Assembly: GCA_016865015.1 (NCBI GenBank)
Contig: CP018226.1
Span: forward strand, 2,945,001-3,009,000
Origin: Rhizobiales bacterium IMCC20636
GTDB lineage: Bacteria; Pseudomonadota; Alphaproteobacteria; Rhizobiales; GCA-2746425
Length of the DNA: 64,000 bases
Direction: 5' to 3'
This document shows positions 41,770 to 62,597 of this stretch, piece by piece. Numbering within the stretch: the stretch's first letter is position 1; each line of letters opens with the position of its first letter. The notes beneath the pieces were generated by a model that was not told the origin of the DNA, ran no database searches, and saw only the letters and a list, made by a program, of their open reading frames with translations. Position numbers and translations under genes: made by a program.

Positions 41770-44700
41770 CTAACTGGCTTCAAGGTATTCTTCTGCGGTC
41801 TGCAAATCCACTGAAACCAGTTGCGATACGCCACGTTCGGCCATTGTGATTCCAAACAAGCGGTCCATACGCGCCATTGTAATGGGATTGTGCGTGACTA
41901 TCACGAATCGTGTGTTTGTCTGTCTGCTCATTTCATCGACCAGGGAACAGAAGCGATCGACGTTGGCATCATCCAATGGTGCGTCGACCTCGTCCAGAAC
42001 ACAGATTGGCGCCGGATTGGTCAGGAACACGGCAAAGATGAGAGACATCGCCGTCAGGGCCTGCTCCCCACCCGACAGCAATGTCATAGTCTGAGGTTTC
42101 TTTCCCGGAGGGCGCGCAATGATTTCCAGACCCGCTTCCAGCGGATCGTCAGATTCGGTCAGTTTCAGCTCGGCCTGCCCGCCTCCGAACAGATGGGAGA
42201 ACAGATGCTGGAAATGGCCATTTACAACTTCAAACGCAGCCAGCAGGCGTTCGCGCCCTTCCCTATTCAGGCTTTGAATGCCAAGGCGCAAACGACGAAT
42301 GGCTTCGATCAGATCGTCGCGCTCTGCAATCAGCCCGTCCAGTCTGGTGCCAACCTCGCCGGCTTCCTCCTCGGCGCGCAAATTGACGCCGCCAAGGCGC
42401 TCCCGCTCGGTTTTCAGTCGATCCAGTCGCTTGTCAATCGAATCGGGATCGGGAAGGATCGCATCCACCGCCAAACCGGTTTTCTCGCGGAGCTCGGATG
42501 GTTTGCATTCGATCACATTGTCGATGCGTTCCACAATATCTGCCAGCCGCTGTTTTGCCGATTCGCTGCGCTCTTCGGCTCGCACCTGTGATTCACGCGC
42601 CTGGCTCAATGCCGCCAGCGCATCCTTGGCAATGCGATCTGCCTCGCGCAGCTCATTGTCTCCAACGGCGCGTGCATCCGCAGATTTGGCTCGTTCTATC
42701 TCCGCCTTTTCAATCTGTGACAGCAGTGATTGACGGCGGTGCAAGAAGGTGTCGGGCGCCTCGTCCAAAACCGACTTTTCGCGGATGTGTTCATCCAGGC
42801 GGGTCTGAAGACTCGCAATCTGCGTCTGTGCATCAGACACCCGGCGCTGCCAATTGGCCCGCTCATTTGCAATGGCCTGCAAACGTTGTGCCCGCAGCGC
42901 GGCCTCGCGCTCCTGCCCCTGAAGGGCTGCCCGTGCCTCTGCAGCTGTGCCGCGGGCTTCTGCAATTTTCACACGCAACACACCAATCGGCTCATCTTGT
43001 GTTGCATGATCTGACTGGGCTTTGAGTTGCTGGTTTGCCTCGTCCACCTGCAATTGTGCTTCGGAGATCGTCGTTTCAAGCCGTTTTTCGGCCTCTTCCA
43101 AGGCGGCCTTGCGGTTTGTAATACGACTGCGCTGTTGTTGCGCCTTGATAAGTTCTTCCTGAGCTTGTGATTGTGACTGGCGCACCTGCCGCAATTTCTG
43201 GCGCAGCGACTGTTCCGTCTCTTCGGCGTGGCGCAATTGTGCCACGACATCCTGCCAGTCCGAGTTCAAGCGCTGCACAGTGCGCTCAGCGTCCTCGGCA
43301 TCGGCTTCCAGATCTGCCAGACGGTTTTTGTTCTCCAGCCGTAACGCAGCCGCAGATGGCGCTTCACTGGCCATGACAAATCCATCCCAGCGCCACATAT
43401 CCCCTTCCCGCGACACAAGTCTTTGACCGGGTTTCAGTTGCTTTTGCAGGTTTGGGCCCTGATCCTTGCTGACCAGACCAATCTGGCTGAGCCGGCGGCT
43501 CAACAACTTTGGCGCCTTGATGTATTCCAGGAGCGGGGTTGTGCCGTCCGGCAAGTTCGCAACCGATGCCAAGGCGTCGCTGTCATCCAGTGCGCGCCAG
43601 TGTGTTGGTGCATGGGCATCAATGGGAACATTGATATCATCGCCGAGGGCGGCACCCAAGGCCGTTTCAAGGCCGGGCTCGACGGTCAGAGCATCAACCA
43701 GAGGCGGCCATAAATCAGAATCATCCACCTGAAGAATCCGCGCGAGTGTCTTGGCTTCGGTCTGCAAGGCGCGCAGATCCTGTTCAGCCTGACGCAGCGG
43801 CTTGCGCGTTTCGGTATCCTGCTGACGCAGATTGCGTAAAGTCGCTTCCGCTTTTTCCAAAGCGGCCTCCATATCACCGACATCCTGCAACCGATCGGCA
43901 ACTTGGTTCTGTAAATCCGTCAGAACCGTGTCTGATGCCAATTGGGTGTTGATCTGTTCCAATTCCTTGGCAACAGAGTGCTTCTGTGCCTTGTGTTGCG
44001 AAACCGACCGCTCACCTTCCGAAACGACGCGCTGCAACTGATTGCGCTCGGCCAGAACCGCCGCCTGCAAACGGTTGAGTTCGGCCAGTTCATGCTCCAG
44101 CACAAGAAGGGCAGCGTCTCTGGCTTCCAGATCTGTTTTCAGGGTTTCCACCTGACTGGATTGCTGATCGGTGGCCTCTTGCAGCGCTGTTTCCTCTTCG
44201 GAAAGCTTGACCAGATTGTCGTCATTGTCTTTGGTCAGTTGCTGTTCGCGGCCAAGATCGTGTTTCAGTTGCTCAATCCGGGCGGCTAATTCGGTCTGGC
44301 GATTTTTAGAGCGCACTTCTTCCGCTTCCAGAGCGTTGCGCGCCACGTTCAGGGTTTGTAAAGCCGCACCGGCCTTCGCCTCTGCCTCCAGCAGTTTTGG
44401 CAATTGCTCGCGCAAAACAGCCTCATTCCGGGCGGCGGCGGCCTGTGCCTGTGTCCGGTTTGCCATATCCAGTGTAACCGTCTTGAACGCTTCGCTCGTC
44501 GTTTCCAGATTCTTTTTGGCCTCAAGCCACTGCAGATAGAACAGTGTTGCCTCTGCCTTGCGAATGTCGCCGGAAATGTTCTTGTAGCGGCTTGCCTGCC
44601 GGGACTGCCGTTTCAACCCGTCCAATTGAGTTTGAATCTGGGTCAGAACGTCTTCCAGGCGATCAAGATTGGTTTCTGCTGCCCTCAGGCGCAGTTCCGC

Positions 44701-45237
44701 TTCGTGACGGCGTGAATAAAGCCCCGAAATGCCGGCCGCCTCTTCCAGAATCGCGCGCCGGGCGGTTGGCTTTGCGCTGATCAACTCGCCAATTTGCCCT
44801 TGCCTGACCAGAGCTGGAGAACGTGAACCGGTCGAGGCATCAGCAAACAGCAATTGCACATCCCGGGCACGAACGTCCTTGCCATTGATCTTGTAAGCCG
44901 AGCCTGCCTCGCGCTCTATACGGCGCGTTACCTCCAGAACATCTGCATCGTTGAAAGCTGCCGGAGCCGTGCGATCGGCATTGTCCACAAACAGCGTTAC
45001 TTCTGCGGTGTTGCGGGATGGCCGGTTGAGCGAGCCGGAAAATATGACATCATCCATTCCGGACGCGCGCATATTCTTGTACGAGCTTTCGCCCATGACC
45101 CAGCGCAAGGCCTCGACCAGGTTGGATTTGCCGCACCCGTTCGGGCCAACAATTCCGGTCTGGCCTTCCTTGATAAAAAATTCGATGGGATCGACGAAGG
45201 ATTTGAAGCCCAGAATTCTGAGCTTGGTGAACATCAT
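41770..45237 (-). CDS. smc: Chromosome segregation protein SMC
   Basis: A 1155-residue condensin ATPase that organises and separates chromosomes. The N-terminal head has Walker A GIVGPNGCGKSNLVEALRWV. Two long coiled coils (about residues 170-490 and 640-990) flank a hinge (about 500-630, with FVMASEAPSAAALRL near its end). The C-terminal head carries the ABC signature LLSGGEQALTAMSLIFA and Walker B CVLDEVDAPLDDANV. The length is the family norm. The gene lies downstream of the DsbA-like gene, in the order DUF721, dsbA, smc on the minus strand. Confidence 0.97.
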   Translation of the reverse strand: MMFTKLRILGFKSFVDPIEFFIKEGQTGIVGPNGCGKSNLVEALRWVMGESSYKNMRASGMDDVIFSGSLNRPSRNTAEVTLFVDNADRTAPAAFNDADVLEVTRRIEREAGSAYKINGKDVRARDVQLLFADASTGSRSPALVRQGQIGELISAKPTARRAILEEAAGISGLYSRRHEAELRLRAAETNLDRLEDVLTQIQTQLDGLKRQSRQASRYKNISGDIRKAEATLFYLQWLEAKKNLETTSEAFKTVTLDMANRTQAQAAAARNEAVLREQLPKLLEAEAKAGAALQTLNVARNALEAEEVRSKNRQTELAARIEQLKHDLGREQQLTKDNDDNLVKLSEEETALQEATDQQSSQVETLKTDLEARDAALLVLEHELAELNRLQAAVLAERNQLQRVVSEGERSVSQHKAQKHSVAKELEQINTQLASDTVLTDLQNQVADRLQDVGDMEAALEKAEATLRNLRQQDTETRKPLRQAEQDLRALQTEAKTLARILQVDDSDLWPPLVDALTVEPGLETALGAALGDDINVPIDAHAPTHWRALDDSDALASVANLPDGTTPLLEYIKAPKLLSRRLSQIGLVSKDQGPNLQKQLKPGQRLVSREGDMWRWDGFVMASEAPSAAALRLENKNRLADLEADAEDAERTVQRLNSDWQDVVAQLRHAEETEQSLRQKLRQVRQSQSQAQEELIKAQQQRSRITNRKAALEEAEKRLETTISEAQLQVDEANQQLKAQSDHATQDEPIGVLRVKIAEARGTAAEARAALQGQEREAALRAQRLQAIANERANWQRRVSDAQTQIASLQTRLDEHIREKSVLDEAPDTFLHRRQSLLSQIEKAEIERAKSADARAVGDNELREADRIAKDALAALSQARESQVRAEERSESAKQRLADIVERIDNVIECKPSELREKTGLAVDAILPDPDSIDKRLDRLKTERERLGGVNLRAEEEAGEVGTRLDGLIAERDDLIEAIRRLRLGIQSLNREGRERLLAAFEVVNGHFQHLFSHLFGGGQAELKLTESDDPLEAGLEIIARPPGKKPQTMTLLSGGEQALTAMSLIFAVFLTNPAPICVLDEVDAPLDDANVDRFCSLVDEMSRQTNTRFVIVTHNPITMARMDRLFGITMAERGVSQLVSVDLQTAEEYLEAS

Positions 45238-45366
45238 ATCGCGGCACCCGCACAGGCAGGAACGAGACCGTTCACAAAATTTTCAAAAACAGGGCAGTCT
45301 GAATTGAAGCGGGCAGAATTTGGACGCGCGAAGCCCTGCCCCGCGCGCACCAAGCGTGGACTTGTG

Positions 45367-46011
45367 TTAGAGCAATGGCTCGATAACTGCGTCCATTTGT
45401 TCAATCGTCAGAGCCCCTGCCTGCCGGGTGCCGTTGATGAAGAAGGTTGGCGTAGACGAAACCTGGAATTCTTCAGCTGCCCGTTTTCTTACCCAGTTTA
45501 CACCGTCAAGAACCTCCTGATTAGTCAAGCATTCCTTGAAGGTCTCCTGTGTAAAACCTAGCTGAAGCGCCATTTTTTGCAACTCGGCGACAACATTCTC
45601 TGCACCGGCCCACTCGCGCTGGCGTTCAAAAAATGCATCGACTACTTCGAAATAGGTTTCTTCAGGCGCGCAACGGGCCAGCATGGCAACCGCCATCGCG
45701 ACGGGATCTAGCGGGAATTCGCGGAACACAAACAGCACCTGCCCGCTATCCACATATTTTTCCTTGAAGGGCTTATAGGTGTTGTTATGGAAGTTGGCGC
45801 AATGACCACATGTCATGCTGGCATATTCAACGACCGTCACGGCGGCATTCGCGTCGCCCAGGGTTTTTTCGCCCATAGGACCCGCGACCATCAGTTCGTC
45901 CAGATCAACGGTTGATGACTGAGCGAAGGCGGCACTGCCAAGCACAGGGATCAGTCCGCCTGCGGCCAACAAACCGGCACTGTGTTTCAACATAAGTCTG
46001 CGGGAAATCAT
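45367..46011 (-). CDS. DsbA-family thiol:disulfide oxidoreductase
   Basis: A 214-residue exported protein with a DsbA-like thioredoxin fold. The start is the ATG at 46011, chosen because GAAGGAG lies 8-14 bases upstream; an ATG 41 codons earlier lacks this. The N-terminus MISRRLMLKHSAGLLAAGG has a twin-arginine and a hydrophobic core ending AFA, so Tat or Sec export is likely. The active site is C68-G-H-C71 in ASMTCGHCANFH, and the cis-proline region is SSTPTFFINGTRQAG. It resembles the DsbA-like proteins next to smc in many Rhizobiales. Confidence 0.9.
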   Translation of the reverse strand: MISRRLMLKHSAGLLAAGGLIPVLGSAAFAQSSTVDLDELMVAGPMGEKTLGDANAAVTVVEYASMTCGHCANFHNNTYKPFKEKYVDSGQVLFVFREFPLDPVAMAVAMLARCAPEETYFEVVDAFFERQREWAGAENVVAELQKMALQLGFTQETFKECLTNQEVLDGVNWVRKRAAEEFQVSSTPTFFINGTRQAGALTIEQMDAVIEPLL

Positions 46012-46336
46012 AAAGGTCGTCTCCTTCGAGCGAAAATTGGCGACAAATAAAGCCGGGGTCCTATCGTTTCGTGGCACAAGCGGCAAAAGAAAGGCAAATG
46101 AAATTTTTGTTATGAAATCAATGTCTGCGGACAAAGGCTTGGCGTCAGTGAAAGATTGAGTTGTTAAGCCCGCCTTTGACGGGAGTCAGCAGCGAAGGCT
46201 CACAATTCTTGCTGATTTTCGCCCCGAGAAGGCCATTTCAACCTGCACGCATACGGTGTGTGAAATCGAAACACCAGCTTGCTGGCTATTGGATCGCTGA
46301 TTACAACACTCGGATCAACCGGGGCAGCACGTCCTG
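46012..46336. other. Intergenic region between DUF721 gene and dsbA-like gene
   Basis: About 325 bases on the leading side of the DsbA-like gene. It contains that gene's ribosome-binding site and presumably its promoter. No other feature is visible; the open frame into it from the DsbA-like gene is not thought to be translated. Confidence 0.5.
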
Positions 46337-46870
46337 CTATCCGGCCTTTTTGCCTCCCAGAATGGCTGCGCCAAGGCGTTTCAGAGACAATTGGAGATCT
46401 GTTTCAGAAATATCTGTCAACCGCGCATCCAGCTCAGCACTTTCTGTGTCGCTCAGCGGCCGGAGTTGCGGTCTCTGTTCACTTTCTGGCCGGCTGATCT
46501 TGCCCTGAACGATTCGCACACGACCGATGGCCTGATACCCGAGAAACTGGTTGATGCGTTCCAGAACCTGAGGCAATTCATGCTGAAAAAACAGGGCATG
46601 GGACGGCAGCACCCGCACTGTCAGGGTTGCCGTGGTGGCATCAGCCCCGCGCTGATCATAACGTTTTGGCCAGTGAATTGATTCTGGAAAGGTGGCTTCC
46701 TCATAATCCGGTCCGACAATGTCTGGCCACCAGGACAACAGTGACGCGGAGCCGAAGCCCCGTCTGGCGCAGATCGGATCAAGCGTTGCACCTATCAAAT
46801 CGGCAAGCGGACGCACGCCCCTGCGGTGCTTCTTTTTTCTCGATTTTCCAGTGTCGTTGACCATGGGCAT
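46337..46870 (-). CDS. DUF721 (DciA-like) protein
   Basis: A 177-residue protein of the DUF721 family, which includes DciA, a loader of the replicative helicase in bacteria lacking DnaC. A basic N-terminus (GKSRKKKHRRGVRPLADLI) precedes the core LLSWWPDIVGPDYEEATFPE and the KH-like LTVRVLPSHALFFQHELPQVLERIN. It is divergent from mutY with 53 bases between them, the usual Rhizobiales pairing. The assignment to the family is good; the helicase-loading role is inferred. Confidence 0.85.
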   Translation of the reverse strand: MPMVNDTGKSRKKKHRRGVRPLADLIGATLDPICARRGFGSASLLSWWPDIVGPDYEEATFPESIHWPKRYDQRGADATTATLTVRVLPSHALFFQHELPQVLERINQFLGYQAIGRVRIVQGKISRPESEQRPQLRPLSDTESAELDARLTDISETDLQLSLKRLGAAILGGKKAG

Positions 46871-46923
46871 AGGATCAACGATATCTGCTTCAACTGCAAT
46901 ATGTTCTCATACGGAATTCGAAT

Positions 46924-48006
46924 TTGACCCAAACTCTGTCCCGATCAACTGCCCCGTTGTTGCTGGCATGGTATGATCGCCATGCGCGGGACCTGCCATG
47001 GCGGGTTCGGCCGGTTGATGGATTGCAGATGCAAGCAGACGCTTATCGGGTCTGGCTCTCTGAAATCATGCTGCAGCAAACCACCGTGGCCGCTGTAAAA
47101 CCCTATTACGAAAAATTCCTGACGCTTTGGCCAGGTGTTGCCGACCTTGCTTCGGCTGAGGACGAGGCTGTGATGGTGGCATGGGCCGGGCTGGGTTATT
47201 ATTCGCGTGCCCGCAATCTGTTGAAATGCGCGCGTGCTGTCGTCGGTGAGTTCGGAGGGCAATTCCCGGATACAGCTTCGCAGTTGCAAAAGCTGCCCGG
47301 CATTGGCCCCTATACGGCAGCCGCAGTTGCCGCGATTGCGTTTCGCGATCCGGTTGCTGTTGTAGATGGCAATGTGGAACGGGTTGTCACGCGGCTTCTG
47401 GCCATAGAAACACCCCTTCCCCAGGCAAAGGAACTGGTGCGAGGCGCTTTGCAGCCGCTTTTTCCAACAGGCCGCCCGGGCGATCTTGCACAAGCCTTCA
47501 TGGATCTTGGCGCAACGCTCTGCTCTCCCAAGCGCCCCACCTGCAGCCTGTGTCCATTGCATGAGCATTGTCAGGCGTATGCAGACGGCCAACAGGAGCG
47601 TTTTCCTGTGAAGCTGCCAAAACTTAAAAAACCAACACGCAAGGGCGCAGCCTTTGTCCTGATCCGGGATGATCAGCAGATCTGGTTGCAAAAACGCGGC
47701 CCCAGTGGCCTGCTGGCTGACATGACGCAAGTCCCGACAACAAACTGGTCGTCCCGCGAAGATGGAGAGACTTCGGTCGATGCCTCACCGTGCAAGGCAG
47801 ATTGGCAAAATGCCGGAGAAGTTCGACACACATTCACGCATTTTCATCTGGAATTGTCCGTCTACAGTGCCAGGCTCAGTTCAGGCCGCAAGACGACACC
47901 AGCGTCAAGCGAAACGCTTGCGATGGGCTGGTGGAGCGATCTGGACGCACTCAATGATGAAGCCCTGCCCAATTTGATGCGCAAGGTCATTGCCTGTGCG
48001 CTTTAG
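46924..48006 (+). CDS. mutY: A/G-specific adenine DNA glycosylase
   Basis: A 360-residue enzyme removing adenine opposite 8-oxoguanine. SEIMLQQTTVAAVKPYYEKF has the catalytic glutamate, LQKLPGIGPYTAAAVAAIAF is the helix-hairpin-helix, and VVDGNVERVVTRLL carries the catalytic aspartate. The 4Fe-4S ligands are in CSPKRPTCSLCPLHEHC. The C-terminal NUDIX-like domain recognises the 8-oxoG (last 120 residues). The start is a TTG at 46924, since no ATG precedes the conserved LLAWYDRHARDLPWR; it is 53 bases from the divergent DUF721 gene. Confidence 0.95.
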   Translation: MTQTLSRSTAPLLLAWYDRHARDLPWRVRPVDGLQMQADAYRVWLSEIMLQQTTVAAVKPYYEKFLTLWPGVADLASAEDEAVMVAWAGLGYYSRARNLLKCARAVVGEFGGQFPDTASQLQKLPGIGPYTAAAVAAIAFRDPVAVVDGNVERVVTRLLAIETPLPQAKELVRGALQPLFPTGRPGDLAQAFMDLGATLCSPKRPTCSLCPLHEHCQAYADGQQERFPVKLPKLKKPTRKGAAFVLIRDDQQIWLQKRGPSGLLADMTQVPTTNWSSREDGETSVDASPCKADWQNAGEVRHTFTHFHLELSVYSARLSSGRKTTPASSETLAMGWWSDLDALNDEALPNLMRKVIACAL

Positions 48007-50642: not shown

Positions 50643-50963
50643 TCAGCCCTGTCGTTCCGGAACAGTGACCGCAAGTCCATCCAACTCAGAGGTGATTCTG
50701 ATCTGGCAGGACAAACGGCTGGTCGGGCGCACATCATAGGCAAAATCCAGCATGTCCTCTTCCATGGGCTCAGGATTGCCAACGCGTTCGCTCCATTCCT
50801 CAGCAACGTATACATGGCAGGTTGCACAGGCACAGGCTCCCCCGCATTCCGCTTCAATGCCAGGCACAGCATTCTTGATTGCGGTCTCCATGACCGTTGA
50901 GCCTTCCTCGCCTTCAACGTCGAATGTCTGGTTGTCATGCGTGGTGAATGTGATTTTTGCCAT
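50643..50963 (-). CDS. Adrenodoxin-type 2Fe-2S ferredoxin
   Basis: A 106-residue electron carrier. The cluster ligands follow the adrenodoxin pattern C-x5-C-x2-C...C: C40, C46, C49 and C86, with an extra C44 in GGACACATCHVYV. EEDMLDFAYDVRPTSRLSCQI is the conserved acidic partner-binding and last-ligand region. It could serve Fe-S assembly or a cytochrome P450/oxygenase. The adjacent FNR-like gene suggests an NADPH to FNR to ferredoxin chain. Confidence 0.95.
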   Translation of the reverse strand: MAKITFTTHDNQTFDVEGEEGSTVMETAIKNAVPGIEAECGGACACATCHVYVAEEWSERVGNPEPMEEDMLDFAYDVRPTSRLSCQIRITSELDGLAVTVPERQG

Positions 50964-51822
50964 GTTGCTTCGGTCTCGTTTTCAGGAGGTTGTAATGCGA
51001 GGGGGTGTTTCAGAAAAGATCGTCCCAGTGATGTTTAGTGCTGTATCACGGCGCTTTCAAGTGACCACAGGCATAAAGCCATCAGCGCCGTTGCAACGTT
51101 GGAAACCGCCAGATTCGGGAACAAATCAGGAATCCCAAGAGCCTTTGTTAACCATAATACCATTTTCCACAATTTGCGTTCAGAGTCTAAGGCTGCGGCC
51201 CTCAGAGTCCAGCCGGAGTCAAAAAACACCGAAATCTGCCGGTTGTTTGGAGCTATATTTGAATTTTGCTGAAAATGATCGGGTTCGAATGAGTCTTGGC
51301 GTTAACAAAAGCCGCTAATTGCTTATTTTTTTTGTTGTCTTGGCTTTCCAAAGCGATACGATACGGGAGCGGCAAGAAGACGTGGATTCTCTGAAGCACC
51401 GGATTGTTAAAATTTAAGCAAAATTTAACCAATCCAGCTTCTCGCACCCCGTTAGCGCGGCCCTGTACGGACAAACCCTGATTTCTGCGGGATTGCCCTA
51501 TTGGCGCCAAACTAGCGGGTTATGGAATCCGAAGAGTGCGGTGTTGCTGGTTTTTGTCTTGAGCAGTTTCTTTTCGGGAACTTTCGTTCAAGGCGACTGG
51601 CATATCGGTTTTTTGCATTTCTTCCGCGGGGCAAAAAACGATTTTCAATCGGTGGGCTGGACTGTTGTCCAGGTATTTTGATTGGATTTCGAATTGGGCA
51701 CGTTGGTGCCGGGTAAATTGTACAGGCCAGATGTCAGGCCAGATAGATTGTGCAGTCCTGGCGAATGTCTGAAAAATGCGCCGCTGGCGAAAATGTTATG
51801 AGTACGAACGCGAGGCAAAACG
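50964..51822. promoter_or_regulatory. Long control region upstream of the giant GPR-like gene
   Basis: About 860 bases between divergent genes, AT-rich from about 51250 to 51550. Candidate elements are a TTAACCAT half-site at 51148-51155, a near-perfect 35-base palindrome at 51401-51435, and a CtrA-like box inside it. Weak open frames on both strands lack any family feature. The gene itself begins with ATG at 51823. Confidence 0.5.
51401..51435. promoter_or_regulatory. CtrA-like box within an AT-rich palindrome
   Basis: A 35-base near-palindrome starting GGATTG and ending CCAATCC contains TTAA (51414-51417), seven bases, then TTAAC (51425-51429). This matches the full CtrA recognition pattern TTAA-N7-TTAA of alphaproteobacteria. 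A further TTAA at 51407 lies three bases before. It is about 395 bases upstream of the GPR-like gene and about 440 bases from the start of the divergent ferredoxin gene, so which gene it controls is not settled. Confidence 0.55.
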
Positions 51823-54800
51823 ATGGCTAAGAACTCTCCGAAGTCAAAAGGGTCCAATGATCCGACTGTATCGGCAGTGGAAGAGGCTCTCAAAATAGAT
51901 TTTGGTGCTGAAGACGCAAAGAGTGACGGGCCATCCCGTCGCGGCAGATCCCGTCGTTCGCGACGCGATGAAGAAAAAAACACACCCGAGGCAGAACGAA
52001 ACAAGCCTGGCCGTGCTTCTGGAACTGCTGCAGACGATACGCCGCCACGCCGTGACCGCTCTGCTTCACGTAATCGCGCCCAACGTCCTGCCAATGATGA
52101 CCGCCAGTCCGTTGGCAACATGCTTTACAGCATTAACCGTCGTCCCTCATTGATGCCATTCTGGGGCGCCCTCGCCGCCTCAGCACTCTGGCTTCTGTTT
52201 GGTGGCATTGTCGGCAGTGCAGCCTTTGGCAAGGATCTGGCCAATCTCGATGGGCTTGCTGGCCTTGGTGAAGCGCCGCATCTGTTTGCCTATTTTGTCA
52301 GCCTGATTTTGCCCGTTGTATTTTTCTGGGTGTTTGCACTGATGATCTGGCGCTCCCAGGAAATGCGCATCGTTGCCAATGGCATGACCGAAGTTGCGCT
52401 CCGCCTGTCCGAACCGGAAGACATTGCCAAAGATTCTGTTCTCAGCGTTGGCCAGGCCATTCGCCGGGAAGTGGCAGCCATGGGTGACGGTATTGAACGC
52501 GCTCTTGCACGTGCCAGTGAACTGGAAGTGATGGTTCATACTGAAGTGGCAGCGCTGGAGCGCGCCTACTCAACCAATGAAAGCCGAATTCGTTCTGTTG
52601 TCGATGAGCTTGTCTCACAACGAGAAGCAATCGTTCATAATTCCGAACGGTTGCGGACTGCCATTGGCGGTGCGCGCGAAACGCTTTCCGAAGAACTTGC
52701 CAAAACCAGTGATGCAATTGCTGACCGGGTGTCTGAATCCGGACAACGCGTGATCGCGTCCCTTGGCCAAAAAGGTGAGCAGATCACCATCGCTCTTGGA
52801 ACAGCTGGCGAAACAATGATTTCCACATTGTCCATTCGCGGGCAGGAACTGGTGCAGAACCTGTCCAACACGGGCCAGGAAGTAACTGCTTCATTGCAGG
52901 AAACCGGTTTGCAGGTTTCTGACACCATATTGAAATCCAAAGACAATCTGACAGCAACACTGATGGAGCGCTCGCAGGAAGTCAGCGGCTCTCTGGATCT
53001 GGCTGTGGAAAACGTTGTTACTCAATTCTCCAATCAGGGTAGCAAAATTGCCGAGCGGATTGACGCAACCGGCAAATCTGCCGGCGATCAGATTTTCGCC
53101 CGTGGAACGCATCTTGCCGACCGTCTTGAAACCGCAAGCACACGCCTGTCGAAAGCTATTGAAGGACATGGCGAGGAAGTTACCGATCGCCTCGCCTCAA
53201 CAAGCGAGCAGGTCGCCGCCGCATTGGATGGCAAGACAGCTGAATTCAAAAGCACGCTGGATCTTGGAGCACAGACAGTGCGCGACGCGCTGAATGTCAA
53301 CGGCACTCAATTGGCCACACAAATTGCCACAGTCGGTACGGAAGTTGCCAAGGCCATTTCCACACGCGGCAAGCATTTGATGAGCGAAGTGCTCAACCTC
53401 AATGACCAGATCAACATCACCCTGAATGACAAGGGCAAGGAGCTCAGTGAAGCTCTGGATGGCCGGTTGAAGGCTCTGGACACGACCATCAATGAAAACG
53501 GCTCCGCGCTGACATCTGCACTTGGCAGCCGGTCAAGCGAGATCGAACAGCTCTTCACATCCCGCATCGCGGATCTGGATGGCTCCATTTCCAAACATAG
53601 TGCTGCCATGCAGTCCACCATGGCCGACCATCTTGATAATTTCACCACGTCTGTGAGTGCCGCGACCGAAAAGGTTGGCGATACGCTTGCTGAACGCACA
53701 GGTGTTCTGGAAGAAGTCCTGTCAGGTCGCCTCAATACGTTTGAAGACAGCGTCGGGGTTCGCCTCGACAGCGCTGCAAGCACTATTGGCAGCAAAGCCG
53801 ATGCGCTTGCCGAGATACTTGAGCAACGCTCCAACATGGTCAGCGAAGCACTTGATATTCGCACCGCTGAGATGAATGAGGCGCTGATCGAGCGCACTCG
53901 TGAAATCGCACGTGCATTCGGTGAAGGCCAGAACGACATCACCATGACGCTCGAAGGCCGCTTCCAGGAAGTCAACGAAGCGCTTTCCAACAAGACCCGC
54001 GAAATGTCGGAAGTCGTGTCCGAGCGGATTCAGGAAATCAACATGGCGCTTGGTACCAAAGTGTTTGAGGTTGCTGAAAACCTTGAAGATCGCGCAACCA
54101 TCCTGCAACAGTCCCTTTCGGCCAGCATGGAGGCCATCGGCACCGAGCTCTACGAACAGGGTGAGAAAGCCAATTCCAATTTTGTCGTTAATGTTGAAAA
54201 CGCGAACAACATGTTCCGCTCGACGATAACCGATGCAAGCGAAAGCCTGCTCAATAATCTGGAACGTGCATCAAGTGGTATTGCCGGCCTGACCGAGGAA
54301 CTGGACGAAAAACTGGTCAGCCGCATTGCAATTGCAACCGAGAACCTCTCCGGCTCTACTCTGCAATTGAATGAAACGCTGGGAGCACGAACTGCTGAAC
54401 TGACCGAAATTCTGGACAATAGCGGTGGATCACTGATCTCCGCCTTGCACGAAAAAGGTCTCGACCTGTCCTCACAGCTGCGCACTGCCGGTTCGACCAT
54501 TGTCGATACGTTCTCGCAGCAGGGTGAAGATATTGCGGCGGCCATTGCCGCTTCCAGCGAAAACGCCCGTGCCCGTCTTCTCGATGGCAATCAGGAACTT
54601 CTGGCCAATATCGAAGAACAGGGTGCAGCCGTTGTCCAAAGATTGGCCGAAAGCGGAAATTCGATCCTGCTGCTCAGCGAACAGGCAACAGAGCGCCTGG
54701 CCAATGTAAACACGGACTTTGTAACGACACTCCAGACCCTGAGCGATCAGGCTATCGAGAAACTGAACGAAAGCAGCTACGCCGCTGTCGAGCAGACTGA

Positions 54801-57543
54801 TGCGGCCCGTACGCGTATCGCAGAAGCCAATCAGCAACTCGTAACTGCCCTTGCAGCGCAAAGTGATGAAGTCACCGACCGTCTTGATGAAAGAGGTCGT
54901 GCTGCAATTCAGTTGGCTGATGAAGCCAGCGCACGCATCGCTGAAGCAAACCAGGAATTGCTGGCCACTTTGACAGCGCAAAGTGAAGAAGCTGCCACAC
55001 GCCTCAATGACAGCGGACGTGCCGCGACACAAATGGCCGAAGAAGCACGCGCACGCATTGCTGAAGCCAATCAGGAACTGATGGCAACTTTGGCAGCCCA
55101 AAGTGACGAAGTTGCCGCGCGTCTCAATGACAGCGGTCGTACTGCAACACAATTGGCTGAAGAAGCTCGCACCCGTATCGCTGAAGCCAATCAGGAACTG
55201 GTCGCAACGATTGCTGCGCAAAGCGAAGAAGCTGCCAAACGCCTCGACGAAAGTGGTCGTGCTGTTGCACTACTGGCTGAGGATGCACGCTCTCGTATGC
55301 TGGACAGTGGTGAGCAACTCATCGGAGCTCTTGCCAGCCAGACCGATACATCAGCAGACAAGCTGGATCAGACCAACCGCGCTGTTGCGCTGCTGGCCGA
55401 TGAAGCCAATGCCCGCATGATGGAAAACAACGACAAGCTGATCAGAGCACTTGCCACTCAGAGTGAGGAAGCTGTCAATCGTCTCGACGACAGCGGACGT
55501 GCCATTGCCATGTTGGCTGAAGAAGCCCGCACGCGCATGCTGGACAGCAATGAGGAGCTGGTTGCGACACTCAAGACCCACGCTGAAATGTCCGGTCTGC
55601 AATTTGACGAAGGCAACCGCGTGGTTGCTGAACGTCTCGACGAGACCAGCCGTGGCCTGCTGGAAGCCTTTGAAGAACGTGGTCGCGAGATCGCCAACAT
55701 CATGACGGGTGCGACCAGCGACTTCATCACCAAGATGACCAGTCAGTCTGATCAGGCAGCAAGCCGATTGAGCGAAAGCAGCCACAGTGTCCTGGCCGCT
55801 CTTGATACGCAGAGCAGTGAAGCTGTTGAACGCCTGCTGGCCGCCAGTCAGAACACTGTTGTCAATCTCGAGCAGACCTCAATGGAAGCTGCGGAACGGG
55901 TGTTCAACAACAGTGAATCCATGGCCAACACGCTGACAGAACGCAGTCGTGAAATTGCCGAAACAATCGCGGCCTCTTCCAGCTCCATGGTCGAGTTGCT
56001 CGACAGCCGCAGCACAGAGGCCATAAGCCTGCTGAGCAACGCTAATGAGCGCCTGCGTGACGATGTGGAATCCATGGTGTCTCGCCTTGAGAATGCCAAT
56101 TCCGGCCTTCAGCAAGTTCTGGCCTCAGCGCATGAGCAGTTGGGCTCTGTAGAAGATGGACTTGGTGCACGTGCTGAAGAATTCCGCGCTACACTTGCCA
56201 AGGCGCTTCAGGAAAGTCAGGTCTCTACGGATGCTATTTCCGGACAGGTTGGCATTCTTCATGACGTTTCCGACACTGTGCTTGGTGGTATGGGTGGATT
56301 GGCCGACAAGATCGCAACGCAGATCACGGCTCTTGCCGAAGTCTCAGATCGCCTCGACAACAGCAACAACACCATCGAAGACACCTTCCAGTCACGCTAT
56401 GCGGTTCTGGAGCAGGTCGCTCAGGGTATCATGCAAAAATCGGATGATGTTGAGACACGCATGCGTGCCTTCTCAAGTCTGATCGCCGAAACGCTTGCTG
56501 GTGCAGAAGACCGTGCCGAACAGATTGGTATCAATCTCAGCCGTAACGCTGAGAAAGCGACCCGCGGTGTGGTTGAGCAATTGGCTGCCATGAGCACTGC
56601 CGCAGGCGCAGAAGGCACCAAAGCCTCCGAGGCCGTCCGACTGGCACAGTCAGAATTATCGGAAGGTATTGCCAACGCAATATCCGATGCGACATCGCGC
56701 TTCAAAGACGCAACGGTTGAGATGCGTGCCACAGCACAAGCCATGCAGGCTGAACTGAACGCCGTTCGCTCTGATCTGAAGAAGGCTACCGTTGAACTGC
56801 CAGAAGAAACACGTGAGAACATGGCCACCATGCGCCGTGTCGTAGCTGAACAGATTCAGGCCTTGTCTGACCTGTCAGAAATTGTGACACAGCATGCCCG
56901 TCCAAACTCTTCCGGCACGTCGGCGGCCATCGCTGCAGCAGGTACCCGTCCTGCTCCCGCAGCCAAGGAAACTCCGGCGCCAGCGGCAAAGGCTGCAACA
57001 CGGCCTGCACCGACACCGATAAGGCCTTCCACAGCATCCAGCACTTCTAGCCGGGATGGCGAGAAGAAAGGTTCTGGCTGGGTCAGCAGTCTTCTGGAAC
57101 GTGCATCCACAGATGATGACCGTGCCGTTGGCGAACAACTCGGCAAGCGTGAAGACCGCAAAGAGCCGAAAGCTGAAGAAGTGAAACGCAGTGAACCGGA
57201 TATGGTGGAGTCACTGAATTCACTGTCTGCCGACATTGCCCGTGCCATTGATCATTCAACTTCAGTGGAGTTGTGGGATCGTTACAATCGTGGGGAACGG
57301 AACGTCTTTACCCGTCGTCTCTATACAATCCAGGGTCAGAAAACCTTCGATGACATTCGTCGCAAATTCCAGAATGATGGTGAGTTCCGCTCAGCGGTGA
57401 ACCAGTATATCGAAGACTTTGAACGTCTGATGGGTGAAGTGACAGACAAGCACGGTGACGCCGAACTGACCGAGAAATATCTCACATCAGACACAGGCAA
57501 GGTCTACACAATGCTGGCCCATGCGAGCGGGAAGTTGAGCTAG
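51823..57543 (+). CDS. gpr: Giant coiled-coil membrane protein, GPR/RgsE-like (growth pole ring)
   Basis: A 1906-residue protein. It has a charged disordered N-terminus (1-105) and two membrane helices (about 110-136 and 153-176). A very long helical region follows (about 200-1690), with apolipoprotein-like repeats. Seven 40-residue units starting RIAEANQEL or RMLDSNEEL lie at codons 998-1277. A Pro/Ala-rich linker (about 1693-1745) follows, and then a compact conserved C-terminus with SVELWDRYNRGERNVFTRRL and RSAVNQYIEDFERLMGEV. This architecture matches the Growth Pole Ring protein of Agrobacterium and RgsE of Sinorhizobium, which organise unipolar growth. The assignment rests on architecture, size and lineage. 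A terminator follows. Confidence 0.85.
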   Translation: MAKNSPKSKGSNDPTVSAVEEALKIDFGAEDAKSDGPSRRGRSRRSRRDEEKNTPEAERNKPGRASGTAADDTPPRRDRSASRNRAQRPANDDRQSVGNMLYSINRRPSLMPFWGALAASALWLLFGGIVGSAAFGKDLANLDGLAGLGEAPHLFAYFVSLILPVVFFWVFALMIWRSQEMRIVANGMTEVALRLSEPEDIAKDSVLSVGQAIRREVAAMGDGIERALARASELEVMVHTEVAALERAYSTNESRIRSVVDELVSQREAIVHNSERLRTAIGGARETLSEELAKTSDAIADRVSESGQRVIASLGQKGEQITIALGTAGETMISTLSIRGQELVQNLSNTGQEVTASLQETGLQVSDTILKSKDNLTATLMERSQEVSGSLDLAVENVVTQFSNQGSKIAERIDATGKSAGDQIFARGTHLADRLETASTRLSKAIEGHGEEVTDRLASTSEQVAAALDGKTAEFKSTLDLGAQTVRDALNVNGTQLATQIATVGTEVAKAISTRGKHLMSEVLNLNDQINITLNDKGKELSEALDGRLKALDTTINENGSALTSALGSRSSEIEQLFTSRIADLDGSISKHSAAMQSTMADHLDNFTTSVSAATEKVGDTLAERTGVLEEVLSGRLNTFEDSVGVRLDSAASTIGSKADALAEILEQRSNMVSEALDIRTAEMNEALIERTREIARAFGEGQNDITMTLEGRFQEVNEALSNKTREMSEVVSERIQEINMALGTKVFEVAENLEDRATILQQSLSASMEAIGTELYEQGEKANSNFVVNVENANNMFRSTITDASESLLNNLERASSGIAGLTEELDEKLVSRIAIATENLSGSTLQLNETLGARTAELTEILDNSGGSLISALHEKGLDLSSQLRTAGSTIVDTFSQQGEDIAAAIAASSENARARLLDGNQELLANIEEQGAAVVQRLAESGNSILLLSEQATERLANVNTDFVTTLQTLSDQAIEKLNESSYAAVEQTDAARTRIAEANQQLVTALAAQSDEVTDRLDERGRAAIQLADEASARIAEANQELLATLTAQSEEAATRLNDSGRAATQMAEEARARIAEANQELMATLAAQSDEVAARLNDSGRTATQLAEEARTRIAEANQELVATIAAQSEEAAKRLDESGRAVALLAEDARSRMLDSGEQLIGALASQTDTSADKLDQTNRAVALLADEANARMMENNDKLIRALATQSEEAVNRLDDSGRAIAMLAEEARTRMLDSNEELVATLKTHAEMSGLQFDEGNRVVAERLDETSRGLLEAFEERGREIANIMTGATSDFITKMTSQSDQAASRLSESSHSVLAALDTQSSEAVERLLAASQNTVVNLEQTSMEAAERVFNNSESMANTLTERSREIAETIAASSSSMVELLDSRSTEAISLLSNANERLRDDVESMVSRLENANSGLQQVLASAHEQLGSVEDGLGARAEEFRATLAKALQESQVSTDAISGQVGILHDVSDTVLGGMGGLADKIATQITALAEVSDRLDNSNNTIEDTFQSRYAVLEQVAQGIMQKSDDVETRMRAFSSLIAETLAGAEDRAEQIGINLSRNAEKATRGVVEQLAAMSTAAGAEGTKASEAVRLAQSELSEGIANAISDATSRFKDATVEMRATAQAMQAELNAVRSDLKKATVELPEETRENMATMRRVVAEQIQALSDLSEIVTQHARPNSSGTSAAIAAAGTRPAPAAKETPAPAAKAATRPAPTPIRPSTASSTSSRDGEKKGSGWVSSLLERASTDDDRAVGEQLGKREDRKEPKAEEVKRSEPDMVESLNSLSADIARAIDHSTSVELWDRYNRGERNVFTRRLYTIQGQKTFDDIRRKFQNDGEFRSAVNQYIEDFERLMGEVTDKHGDAELTEKYLTSDTGKVYTMLAHASGKLS
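54814..55653 (+). repeat. Seven 120-bp tandem repeats inside the GPR-like gene
   Basis: Seven consecutive 120-base units, each coding 40 residues. The first four begin RIAEANQ(Q/E)L and the last three begin RML or RMM with looser sequence. Each unit has the pattern: start, ...ATLAAQSEEA..., RL(N/D)(D/E)SGRA..., LAEEAR. The 40-residue period suits long helices of the apolipoprotein/ring-forming kind. Units 2-4 are the most alike, suggesting recent duplication. Confidence 0.93.
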
Positions 57544-58272: not shown

Positions 58273-61200
58273 TCATTCTGCTGGTGAGACAGATGATTGC
58301 GTTGCTGTTTCTGCTGCAGCCACCTCATTTTCAAGCTTTCGCGATGAGGCACCTGGCACCGCGCAAATCGGTGCGATCAGGCGATAGAAGACGGGGGTCA
58401 GGAACAGGGTGAAGACGGTGGCAAAGCCAAGCCCTCCCACAACCACCCAACCCACTGCGATCCGCGCCTCAGCACCGGCACCCGACGCGAATACCAATGG
58501 CAGGCCACCGAACACGGTTGAAATCATCGTCATCATCACTGGCCGGAAACGTAGCCGCACAGCATCTCTGATGGCGCTGTCGACATTCTGGCCCTGCTCG
58601 CGCAACTGATTGGCAAATTCGACGATCAGGATCCCGTTCTTGGCCATGATGCCGATCAGCATCACCAGTCCGATCTGGCTGTAGTAATTCAGGGATCCGC
58701 CGGTCAGGGAGATGGCCAGTACAGCAGCTGCCAGACCAAAGGGCACCGTCAGCATGATGATGATGGCACTGCCAAAGCTTTCGAACTGTGCGGCCAGCAC
58801 AAGGAAAACGATCAGCAACGCAACGCCGAACACAAGCAATGTGCTGCTCTGGCTTTCATCCAATGCTGCGGCTTCCGCCAGGAAAATGATTCCCATATCC
58901 GCTGGCAATATCTCACGGGCCAATTCCTGCGCCCGGTTAGCTGCTGCACTCAAATCCACGCCTGAGGCCAGATTTGTCTGAACCGGGACAGCGCGGTCGC
59001 CCCCTTCTCGGGACAGCTGTGCCGCGGAAGCAGTCTGGGTCAAGGTTACAGCGGTCGAGAGCGGAATATAATTTCCCGATGAAGTCTGCACGAAGACTCG
59101 CTCCAGATCACCCGGATCGTTGATGGGTGCGCCGGCAGGCAACAGTTTGATGTCTACTTCCTTGCCGTCCACGATAACCGTGGCGGCCGTTGACCCTTCA
59201 CTCATAGTGTTGATGATCGAGTTGATGGTCCCAACAGTCAGACCGAGTCTGGTTGCCAGTTCCCGGTCTATCGAGACAGAGATCAGCGGTTGGCTCGTGT
59301 CATAGCCAAGTTGCGGATTGACGAACATATTCGTCTCCTGCGTCATGGCGCTGACCAACTCGTCTCCCGCCTGGACGATTGCGTCATAGTCATTGCCGGT
59401 GACAGCAAATTGCAAGCCGCGTCCCGCACCGCGAATGCCCAAACTGTTGGGCGTTCGAACCGACAAGGTCAGCCCGGTAATACGGCTGAGCCGCTGGTTG
59501 ACCTCACTAGCGATCTCCTGCTGGCTACGGGTGCGTTCAGCCCAATCCGCCAGTCTGATGATGATGAAGGCGGAGGAAGTTGACCCCCGGCCAACAAGTG
59601 CCAGAACCGAGGCCATTTCACCACTTTCGATGTAGGGCTCCAGAATGGACTCAACCTGTCGTGCCTGACTGTCGGTAAAGCTCAGGCTGGCACCGGATGG
59701 CGCCCGCGCGGAAATGATGAAAAATCCGCGATCTTCCTGAGGCGTCAGTTCCGAAGGCAGTGTCAGAAAGCTGCTGGCCGCGAACATAGCGAAAGCAATC
59801 GCAATTCCGATTGTCAACGCAGGCAAGCGCAAGGTGAAATCGACAATCGAGCTATAGCCGCGCGCAAAAATACTGTCGCGCGGTTGCTTGACATCGTCGG
59901 ATTTGCGGTCACGACCGGGATCGAGAATAGCGGCCATGGCCGGAACCAACGTCAGAGCGACAACCGAGGACAAGGTGACGCAAAAAGCCAGTACAAAGCC
60001 GAACTCGGAAAAAATACCGCCCGCCTGCCCCGGCAGAAATGAAATTGGAATGAACACAGCAGCCAGAGTGGCTGTGGTCGAGATAACGGCGAAGAACACT
60101 TCATTGGTACCGGCAACGGCCGCCGCTCGCGGACCCATCCCGGAGCGACGTTTGCGGACAATGTTTTCGACAACAACAATCGCATCATCAACGACCATCC
60201 CGGTGGCCAATACCAGTGCAAGAAGAGAGATCGTATTGATCGAGAACCCGGCCATCCAGATGGCTGCCAGAGTTCCAGTCAGAGCAATCGGGATAGCCAC
60301 TGCCGGAATCATGGTCGCGCTGACAGACCGCAGGAAGACAAAGATTACGCTGATCACAATCAGCACCGCCATGGAGATGGAAAAGACCACCTCGGATATG
60401 GACTGTTCGATGAAGATGCCATCGTCGGAATTGACGATAAGACGGATGCCATCAGGCAATTCGGACTGCAAATCCACAATGGCGGCGCGCACTTCTTTCG
60501 AAATAGACAATGTATTGCTAACCGACTGACGGACGATACTCAGACCAACAGCACTCTCGCCATTGACGCGGAAATAGCTTGAACGCTCACTGGCTGCCAA
60601 TTGAACAAAGGCAACATCACCGATGCGGGTGTTTCCGTCGATCAAAGTGTTGCTGATGGTCGCGGCTGTGACCAATGGATCGGTGCTGCGCATCACGACG
60701 GATTGCGCTTCGGAGTCCAGATCCCCCAATGGGGCCGTTGCCCGCAACGAGGACAGGGCTTGTTCCATGTCATCAGGTGTCAGCCCACGCCCGGTGAGTG
60801 AGATCATGTTGACGTAGACCTGAAATTCATTGGTCTGATCTCCGGAAATACTGACTTCCGAAACGCCTTCAATGGTTGAAACACGATCAGAAACCGGGCC
60901 TTCCGCCAATTCGGTCAGAACTTCAAGGCTGGTGCCCCCCAGCAGCGCCAGACGCATGATCGGGTCTGCATCTGAATCGTTTTTGGTCACTGTCGGATCA
61001 TCAATATCATCCGGCAGTCTTCGCAACGTCCGAGCCACGATTTCCCGAGCTTCATTTGCGACATCATTGATATCGACGCCGTCTGAAAACTCCATGTTGA
61101 TGCGGCTTCGCCCATAGCTGGACCGGGAGGATACGCTTTGTAGCCCCTCAAGAGCCGACAGCGCATCTTCCAGCGGTGTGGTGATCTCCGTATCAATGGT

Positions 61201-61401
61201 TTCAGGCGCAGCGCCGTCATAGGTCGTGTTGACCGACAGGACCGGTTGATCGACATTCGGCAATTCGCGCACGTCAACTGCGGTGAAGGCCGCCAACCCT
61301 GCAACAGCAATCAACAGATTGATTACGAGTGCAAGAATCGGCCTCTTGATAAACAGTTCTGCAAAGCCACTGCGCTTCGATTTCACGATTTCTTTGCTCA
61401 T
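58273..61401 (-). CDS. RND efflux transporter permease (AcrB/MexB-like, HAE1)
   Basis: A 1042-residue inner-membrane proton antiporter. The first helix (PILALVINLLIAVAGLAAF) is followed by the periplasmic porter domain with RSSYGRSRINMEFSDGVDIN. The helix 4 region (LLALVLATGMVVDDAIVVVEN) carries the paired aspartates (D-D) for proton translocation. A second periplasmic loop and a C-terminal six-helix bundle follow (GLVMLIGIMAKNGILIVEFA). It should expel hydrophobic compounds with the adaptor encoded directly upstream (ATGA overlap) and an outer-membrane channel encoded elsewhere. The length is typical. Confidence 0.96.
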   Translation of the reverse strand: MSKEIVKSKRSGFAELFIKRPILALVINLLIAVAGLAAFTAVDVRELPNVDQPVLSVNTTYDGAAPETIDTEITTPLEDALSALEGLQSVSSRSSYGRSRINMEFSDGVDINDVANEAREIVARTLRRLPDDIDDPTVTKNDSDADPIMRLALLGGTSLEVLTELAEGPVSDRVSTIEGVSEVSISGDQTNEFQVYVNMISLTGRGLTPDDMEQALSSLRATAPLGDLDSEAQSVVMRSTDPLVTAATISNTLIDGNTRIGDVAFVQLAASERSSYFRVNGESAVGLSIVRQSVSNTLSISKEVRAAIVDLQSELPDGIRLIVNSDDGIFIEQSISEVVFSISMAVLIVISVIFVFLRSVSATMIPAVAIPIALTGTLAAIWMAGFSINTISLLALVLATGMVVDDAIVVVENIVRKRRSGMGPRAAAVAGTNEVFFAVISTTATLAAVFIPISFLPGQAGGIFSEFGFVLAFCVTLSSVVALTLVPAMAAILDPGRDRKSDDVKQPRDSIFARGYSSIVDFTLRLPALTIGIAIAFAMFAASSFLTLPSELTPQEDRGFFIISARAPSGASLSFTDSQARQVESILEPYIESGEMASVLALVGRGSTSSAFIIIRLADWAERTRSQQEIASEVNQRLSRITGLTLSVRTPNSLGIRGAGRGLQFAVTGNDYDAIVQAGDELVSAMTQETNMFVNPQLGYDTSQPLISVSIDRELATRLGLTVGTINSIINTMSEGSTAATVIVDGKEVDIKLLPAGAPINDPGDLERVFVQTSSGNYIPLSTAVTLTQTASAAQLSREGGDRAVPVQTNLASGVDLSAAANRAQELAREILPADMGIIFLAEAAALDESQSSTLLVFGVALLIVFLVLAAQFESFGSAIIIMLTVPFGLAAAVLAISLTGGSLNYYSQIGLVMLIGIMAKNGILIVEFANQLREQGQNVDSAIRDAVRLRFRPVMMTMISTVFGGLPLVFASGAGAEARIAVGWVVVGGLGFATVFTLFLTPVFYRLIAPICAVPGASSRKLENEVAAAETATQSSVSPAE

Positions 61402-62597
61402 GAATCAGCCTCAGACGTTTGAGGGCCACTCTGTTTTTGGCCAGGCGCGCCTGCGGGTCGATTGCGATTGCCACCGGCAGCTCTCTGGTTAAGTTGCTCA
61501 AGTGTCACAACCTCAGCCCCCTCTCGGAGTTTCTGCACGCCCTCGATGACGACCTGGTCGCCATCTTTCAAATCCGCGTCCAGCCAGACAACATCATTCT
61601 CACGTGAGCGAACAACGACAGGGACCTTGCTGACTTTACCATCAGTTGCGATCCAAACCGTTGCGCCATCCCGGCTCCAGGACAATGCTGAAACAGGTAC
61701 ACTTGGCAAGGGTTCATTGGTGTTGCTGACCAGCACGTTGACAATGGCACCGGGTTGCAGCACCCGTCCGACATTCGCAAATCGTGCCTTTACCCCAATC
61801 AGACGGGTCTCCGGATCAATTTCATTGTCATAGGCCGTAATCTCACCCTCCAAAACAGCACCAGGACTTGACGGAGCCGTGACCCGAACGGGGTAGCCAG
61901 GCCGCAACAAGTCACTTGCACGATCGGGCAGCGTGAACCGGACTGTGAGGTTTTCTGTATTGGTCAGGGTGACCAATTCCGAGCCTGCATTCAGATAACT
62001 GCCCACCTGCACATCTGTCAGGCCAGGCGTACCGGCAATCGGTGCAACAATGCTGCGCTGTTCAAGATCATAATTTGCCTTGTCCAACGCCGCCTGGGCT
62101 ATATCAACAGCCACCTGCGCGTCAGCCAGTGATGTGTTCGTCAATGTTCCGCTAGCGGCCAGTTTCTCATAGCGGGACAGAGTTTCCTGTGCCTGCTGCA
62201 ACTGAATTTGAGCTGTTCTGACGGCTATTTTCTGCAACTCATCATTCAGGGAAACCAAAAGCGCTCCGGCCTCAATTCTGACATTTGGCACCATATGAAC
62301 AGCGGTGACCCGACCACTGGTCTCACTGAGTATTTTTACCCGCGCGTCGGCCTGGACATTGCCAAGAGCACTGAAAAGATCCGTATAGGGTTCAACCTTG
62401 ACCGATTCCATCGTGACTGTGGATGCCTGATTGCCACCCCGTCTTCCGCCGCCGCGTTGTCCTGGCGGGCCTGACCGTCCTGCTGGAGCACTCGCGCTGC
62501 TTTGTTCCGGCGTTCCGGCGCCTTCATATTCAAAAATGAAAAAATAGGTTCCGCCTATCATGGCAGCCGCAACCAGAACGGAGAGAAAGTGTTTCAT
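61398..62597 (-). CDS. RND efflux periplasmic adaptor (membrane fusion protein)
   Basis: A 399-residue adaptor of the HlyD/MexA type. The N-terminal signal or anchor (residues 4-24) is followed by a Gly/Arg-rich linker. The lipoyl halves lie around ILSETSGRVTAVHMVPNVRI and VAPIAGTPGLTDVQVGSYLN, flanking an alpha-helical hairpin. Beta-barrel and membrane-proximal domains follow. The C-terminal stretch is Pro/Gln-rich. Its stop overlaps the permease start (ATGA), so both are made from one message. No local regulator is seen. Confidence 0.94.
   Translation of the reverse strand: MKHFLSVLVAAAMIGGTYFFIFEYEGAGTPEQSSASAPAGRSGPPGQRGGGRRGGNQASTVTMESVKVEPYTDLFSALGNVQADARVKILSETSGRVTAVHMVPNVRIEAGALLVSLNDELQKIAVRTAQIQLQQAQETLSRYEKLAASGTLTNTSLADAQVAVDIAQAALDKANYDLEQRSIVAPIAGTPGLTDVQVGSYLNAGSELVTLTNTENLTVRFTLPDRASDLLRPGYPVRVTAPSSPGAVLEGEITAYDNEIDPETRLIGVKARFANVGRVLQPGAIVNVLVSNTNEPLPSVPVSALSWSRDGATVWIATDGKVSKVPVVVRSRENDVVWLDADLKDGDQVVIEGVQKLREGAEVVTLEQLNQRAAGGNRNRPAGAPGQKQSGPQTSEADS

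Follow-up and report, generated by a model that had tools for sequence, protein, structure and literature searches.

The stretch of DNA analysed here (the window) comprises 64,000 nucleotides of Rhizobiales bacterium IMCC20636 (contig CP018226.1, positions 2,945,001 to 3,009,000 of the forward strand). At 51823-57543 on the plus strand it carries a gpr/rgsE orthologue of 1906 codons plus a stop, open throughout, which was characterised from the ORF, its translation, alignment to RgsE and GPR and a copy search that returned it as a single copy in the closed 4.79-Mb genome of the species. The start sequence MAKNSPK is common to the window protein and its counterparts in the four further genomes of the genus; in two of these an extra in-frame ATG stands five codons upstream of it. 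On the minus strand upstream lies a 2Fe-2S ferredoxin-type gene (50643-50963), identified by sequence comparison as a conserved neighbour and 67% identical to the neighbour of S. meliloti rgsE, followed by an 859-bp gap (50964-51822) in which, by locus comparison, most relatives carry a divergent Hpt gene. Downstream, an AcrB-type efflux pump gene and an HlyD-type membrane-fusion gene occupy 58273-62597 on the minus strand.

All features of the protein are given with their plus-strand coordinates in the window. The N-terminal region ahead of the membrane helices is charged and contains a short motif, SAVEEALKIDFG (residues 17-28; 51871-51906), which resembles that of many relatives in a by-eye reading of N-terminal sequences. 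Hydropathy placed membrane helices at residues 117-135 (52171-52227) and 158-176 (52294-52350), these residue numbers being the hydropathy frame numbers minus 7. A conserved post-anchor helix (about residues 188-281; 52384-52665) was delimited by alignment and by a predicted model in which the anchor region forms long helices (pLDDT 86; pTM 0.37, at which only local structure is trustworthy). It is followed by a rod, helical and in 11/3 register, that spans about residues 282-1692 (approximate limits; 52666-56898) and was recognised by its PF01442 score and periodicity; within it, a repeat search and comparison with congeners located a 40-residue (120-bp) tandem array of 3.9 copies (54817-55290), variable in copy number within the genus. 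A Pro/Ala/Ser-rich linker read from the sequence (residues 1693-1788; 56899-57186) bears the motif GSGWVSSLL (residues 1750-1758; 57070-57096), found by pattern search and similar in RgsE and Agrobacterium GPR. Of 130 proteins from the order, 44 match a strict form of this pattern and 79 a loose form, the latter also matching 3 of 28 others, and the GxGW..LL motif is a possible docking site. The conserved C-terminal helical domain (residues 1789-1906; 57187-57540), defined by domain searches, alignment and modelling, was modelled as all-helical (best of five models pLDDT 83, pTM 0.77; pLDDT range 65-83). Searches with this domain gave no significant fold match in the PDB (best E 0.37), and the best match among PDB sequences (E 0.024) was to unrelated chains; no function is claimed from its fold. 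An earlier note made from the letters of the window had described a 1906-residue protein with two N-terminal membrane helices, a long helical repeat region and a compact conserved C-terminal domain, and each of these parts was recovered.

The earlier note had also assigned the gene, by architecture, to the GPR/RgsE growth-pole proteins and proposed alignment of the C-terminal domain and the membrane region with both, and these alignments bear the assignment out. The C-terminal domain is 66.4% identical to that of S. meliloti RgsE and 67.6% identical to that of an Agrobacterium GPR (locus L107), each at E 4e-50, and the membrane-anchor segment is 54% identical to RgsE and 51% to GPR. Across the rod, identity to either protein falls to about 22%, and the alignment with Agrobacterium GPR forms one match spanning residues 120-1905 (E 1e-147); both ends are thus conserved while the rod drifts. 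On these comparisons the window gene is the orthologue of Sinorhizobium RgsE and Agrobacterium GPR, and its product is an ordinary, expected member of a known family. RgsE (SMc00190) shares with it a rod period of about 3.65 and a ferredoxin neighbour, but is 183 residues longer, is built of other repeat units and has an Hpt gene between the ferredoxin gene and rgsE that the window lacks. GPR (Atu1348, 2115 aa) differs in consisting mostly of 22-residue units rather than a 40-residue array, and its gene likewise has an Hpt neighbour.

The RgsE reference was a 2089-aa protein annotated "kinesin" in S. meliloti Ak57 (CP090106.1), recovered from a plasmid collection with the C-terminal domain as query and taken as RgsE because its length equals the published one (2089 aa in the accessible text of PMC7327166). 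CP090106.1 (L038) is labelled pSymB, measures 3.72 Mb and carries rgsE as well as genes for cytochrome bc1; apparently it is a chromosome under the wrong label. Agrobacterium genomes were reached through the telomere-resolvase family PF16684, which we take to be a marker of Agrobacterium, and were then checked against named records. The protein of A. tumefaciens UMA610 (L117) was 100% identical to reference L107 over residues 1-2118, and the proteins of loci L110 and L111 are 2115 aa long, precisely the length published for GPR. From the scan of named-record genomes the best 80 of 93 confirmed gpr loci were used, of which 73 extend to the C-terminal domain; listed lengths are invalid for L153 (masked sequence) and L186 (no start motif). 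Elsewhere, contig 1 of genome G520 (1.0 Mb), which belongs to the same family as genome G023, carries two telomere-resolvase-like genes at 351066-353819.

Against the Pfam Apolipoprotein family (PF01442) the whole window protein scored 164.7 bits, above the gathering cut-off of 90, while in a genome-wide scan every single stretch of it stayed below the cut-off (best 43.2 bits). Hydrophobic periodicity was 3.65-3.655 residues, close to 11/3, in the window protein, RgsE and the Agrobacterium GPR-type protein. Rod self-identity was 0.181 at lag 40, 0.152 at lag 22 and 0.149 at lag 11, above chance, as 200 shuffles gave at most 0.104 at these lags; the strongest lag was 40 in the window protein, 22 in RgsE and GPR and 55 in L165. 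The rod contains neither Pro nor Trp across the 1437 residues measured, and its Phe and Tyr contents are 1.5% and 0.3%. A true apolipoprotein-like lipid binder, whose amphipathic helices would lie on the membrane and sort lipids, would account for the PF01442 score and would agree with the lipid role proposed for GPR in the available part of PMC8262873; it would also be compatible with a scaffold. We nevertheless consider it unlikely, since the aromatic content (a weak argument, being one of composition) and the locking of indels to the 11/3 register described below speak more for a helical rod or coiled coil. The protein differs from the PF01442 family in being bacterial and membrane-anchored and in having a very long rod with a register. 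The label "apolipoprotein-like" used for the repeats in the earlier note holds as a Pfam match; a helical rod in 11-residue register is the better description of the region.

Rod length varied within the genus, in line with the repeat-number difference that had been anticipated. Relative to the window protein, two species show a large length gap of 80 residues and two others one of 40; these sit at the 40-residue array, the remaining gaps being of 3-7 residues. An alpha helix rises 0.15 nm per residue, so about 1500 helical residues would reach about 225 nm if fully extended, and one 40-residue repeat would alter rod length by about 6 nm. The extended rod of 600 nm given for 1700 helical residues in the accessible text of PMC8262873 was set aside, since it amounts to about 0.35 nm per residue, as in an extended chain, and a 1700-residue alpha helix would measure about 255 nm.

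Indels were analysed in 102 proteins with the anchor motif, 79 of which fell into 11 clusters of close relatives; events of at least 7 residues were counted along spanning trees of these clusters and scored as in register when within 0.15 turn of 11/3. In the rod, 99 of the 103 indels counted among these 79 proteins were in register, compared with 8 of 17 in the flanks (N-terminal region; linker plus C-terminal domain; Fisher p 1e-6), a small control of short indels (7-13 residues) not length-matched to those of the rod. Counts over all pairs, in which events are not independent, put 98% of 458 rod indels in register, and 37.5% of 48 and 37.8% of 270 flank indels. Multiples of 11 made up 81 of the 103 rod indels, and 18 of the 22 others were also in register. 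The four exceptions measured 58, 80 and twice 292 residues; the 80-residue one is the two-repeat step of the window's genus, 0.18 turn off, where a single 40-residue step is 0.09 off. Because unequal exchange between repeats would by itself favour multiples of the unit, part of this pattern is mutation bias; we infer that it also reflects selection in part, of which the in-register steps of 7, 29 and 40 residues, not being multiples of 11, are the better sign. The pattern bears on the published GPR deletions of about 20 residues (PMC8262873, available in part), one of which, in region A-IV-4, showed the strongest interference of all, yet formed foci alone, while the other, in A-IV-1, largely complemented and formed paired foci. 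By our computation, removal of 21 or 20 residues at A-IV-1 puts the helix 0.27-0.45 turn off register; that such a deletion largely complemented argues against a strict register rule.

Of 101 genomes sampled from the order, 97 carry the C-terminal domain, with one match each except for two in G002. The domain is likewise present in all five genomes examined of the window's genus, and elsewhere in the class in 87 of 237 sampled genomes; no relative was confirmed in viral contigs. Such near-universal presence in the order is unlike that of a defence gene, and a ZorA-type anti-phage or motor-type protein, which the "kinesin" annotation of the S. meliloti copy and weak NCBIfam matches to ZorA (20.9 and 20.7 bits) might suggest, is extremely improbable; the cut-offs of those two models are 190 and 700 bits, and the sole Pfam family found in the protein was PF01442.

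None of the five genomes examined of this genus has a true MreB; their best PF06723 match reached 66.7 bits, compared with 379-510 bits for full MreB elsewhere in that search. Within the order, full MreB was present in 9 of 58 genomes (G001, G011, G018, G025, G031, G032, G037, G038 and G039), in each together with a shorter-rod GPR-type protein, and an MreB fragment in G009; the GPR-type C-terminal domain occurs in all ten of these genomes, in proteins whose rods measure 605-1170 residues. In the accessible text of PMC7327166, a study that restricted RgsE homologues to lengths within 50% of 2089 aa, Rgs proteins are said to be mutually exclusive with MreB and their hosts to lack it; the co-occurrence seen here qualifies that statement. 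The median rod in the order was 715 residues with MreB (n=9) versus 1520 without (n=37; Mann-Whitney p 0.0007), a count that left out, of the 58, genomes in which the gene is cut at a contig end (G016, G024 and G048), the MreB-fragment genome G009, four of the five congeners and genomes with no C-terminal match (G026, G036, G068 and G078). In a gene tree (73 sequences, 267 columns, read without regard to support values) the MreB-bearing members of the order fell mainly in two clades, in the larger of which the MreB-less members are also short-rodded, and three genomes outside the order combine rods of more than 1400 residues with MreB. In view of this clade pattern and these three genomes, the idea that losing MreB drove the rod to lengthen was set aside, and no link between the two is claimed.

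All 22 tested genomes outside the order that carry the C-terminal domain also have MreB, so the domain alone is no proof of polar growth. Their proteins raise the possibility that the window protein is a TipN-like polarity marker, a member of the same family whose task at the pole it marks would be to organise proteins of the chromosome or of division, and not wall growth. A GPR-TipN similarity is remarked on in the accessible part of PMC8546619, and the shorter relative in G222, a genome outside the order, matched the window protein at 30% identity over the membrane segment (E 6e-6) and 36% over the C-terminal domain (E 2e-24). Frames with the C-terminal domain in G222 and in G325, of the same genus, encode 881 and 886 aa, and TipN has 882 aa in the available text of PMC13170164; these frames are candidate TipN genes, although the name link comes from the literature and could not be proven. 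TipN-sized relatives in other Alphaproteobacteria share the anchor segment and the C-terminal domain, and differ in having mostly much shorter rods (median 756 residues in the 22 loci outside the order, three exceeding 1400) against 1613 residues in the window protein. Since the window protein is moreover far closer to RgsE and GPR and its genus lacks true MreB, a polarity marker of the TipN kind is very unlikely.

In S. meliloti the gene order is ferredoxin, Hpt, rgsE, with the first two divergent from rgsE. All 80 named Rhizobiaceae loci (the best 80 of 93, picked by similarity and mutually related) have a one-domain Hpt gene upstream of gpr/rgsE and divergent from it, and in 79 of them the ferredoxin gene lies on the far side of Hpt. 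A divergent Hpt gene was also present in 38 of 44 genomes representing one per family of the order, each with at least 1 kb of upstream sequence, and outside the order at 7 of 22 loci, from five genera. Among the six genomes of the order, other than those of the window's genus, that are without a divergent copy, four (G045, G030, G017 and G050) had no Hpt profile match anywhere, G034 has an Hpt gene on the same strand 1.8 kb from gpr, and G008 showed none in its 1.4 kb of upstream sequence.

The ferredoxin and Hpt genes are habitual companions of gpr/rgsE and not a defining trait. None of the five genomes of the window's genus carries a divergent Hpt gene next to gpr. The Hpt profile gave no match in three of these genomes (G000, G040 and G080), and weak unlinked matches alone in G338 and G339 (E 2e-4 and 5e-4); the two other Hpt domains that Pfam finds in the window's genome are both distant from gpr. 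A tblastn search of the Hpt set against the 859-bp gap reached a best E of 0.028 across 19 residues, and the ORFs at 50752-51318 and 51645-52121 gave no Pfam match. The ferredoxin gene is kept in all five genomes, divergent and 698-927 bp from gpr; because it persists there while Hpt is missing, the pattern reads as loss of the Hpt gene in place. The neighbour suggests that the growth pole may receive a hitherto unstudied phosphorelay-type input, and the genus of the window shows what is left when Hpt is absent. The acceptor His is present in 68 and missing in 31 of 99 neighbour copies, so some may escape phosphorylation, which weakens a phosphorelay reading. In the accessible literature on TipN or Rhizobiales polar growth, which took in few subscription papers, no paper dealt with such a neighbour, as judged by titles and the openings of abstracts.

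For GPR and RgsE, the accessible text of PMC8262873 and PMC7327166 describes a scaffold at the growing pole that confines wall synthesis to the tip. In Rhizobiales that grow at the tip, both proteins are leading candidates to replace MreB as scaffold. We hold it very probable that the window gene is the GPR/RgsE orthologue of an MreB-less member of this order and most likely specifies a growing-pole scaffold, with topology, oligomerisation, polar ring and scaffold role inferred. By homology, the N-terminal helix pair would anchor the protein in the inner membrane, from which the long, nearly unbroken rod with its 11/3 hydrophobic stripe, probably paired as a coiled coil, would reach into the cytoplasm; the flexible linker would bear the compact C-terminal helical domain, which may dock or assemble pole components. 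By analogy with its relatives, the most likely job of such a scaffold would be to hold wall synthesis at the tip, but with a rod only about 22% identical to theirs, the role of the rod could differ, and the lack of the Hpt gene that most relatives have next to gpr is a further point against the assignment.

Beyond this orthologue assignment, what merits further work is the register pattern, the length changes in steps of 40 residues and the loss of the Hpt neighbour. A tentative and rather doubtful reading is that the GPR/RgsE/TipN-type family has a register-locked, length-tunable rod and an old divergent Hpt-type partner, possibly a regulator of pole assembly, that was lost in the window's genus; its probability was reduced because the A-IV-1 deletion largely complemented. 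If true, rod length, register and Hpt control could be tested separately by way of the window's genus, with its steps of 40 residues (about 6 nm). Elsewhere in the window, the region 41770-48006 includes an SMC-family gene (1155 aa, minus strand), a DciA-type gene (46337-46870, minus strand) and a MutY-like gene with HhH-GPD and NUDIX domains (46924-48006, plus strand).
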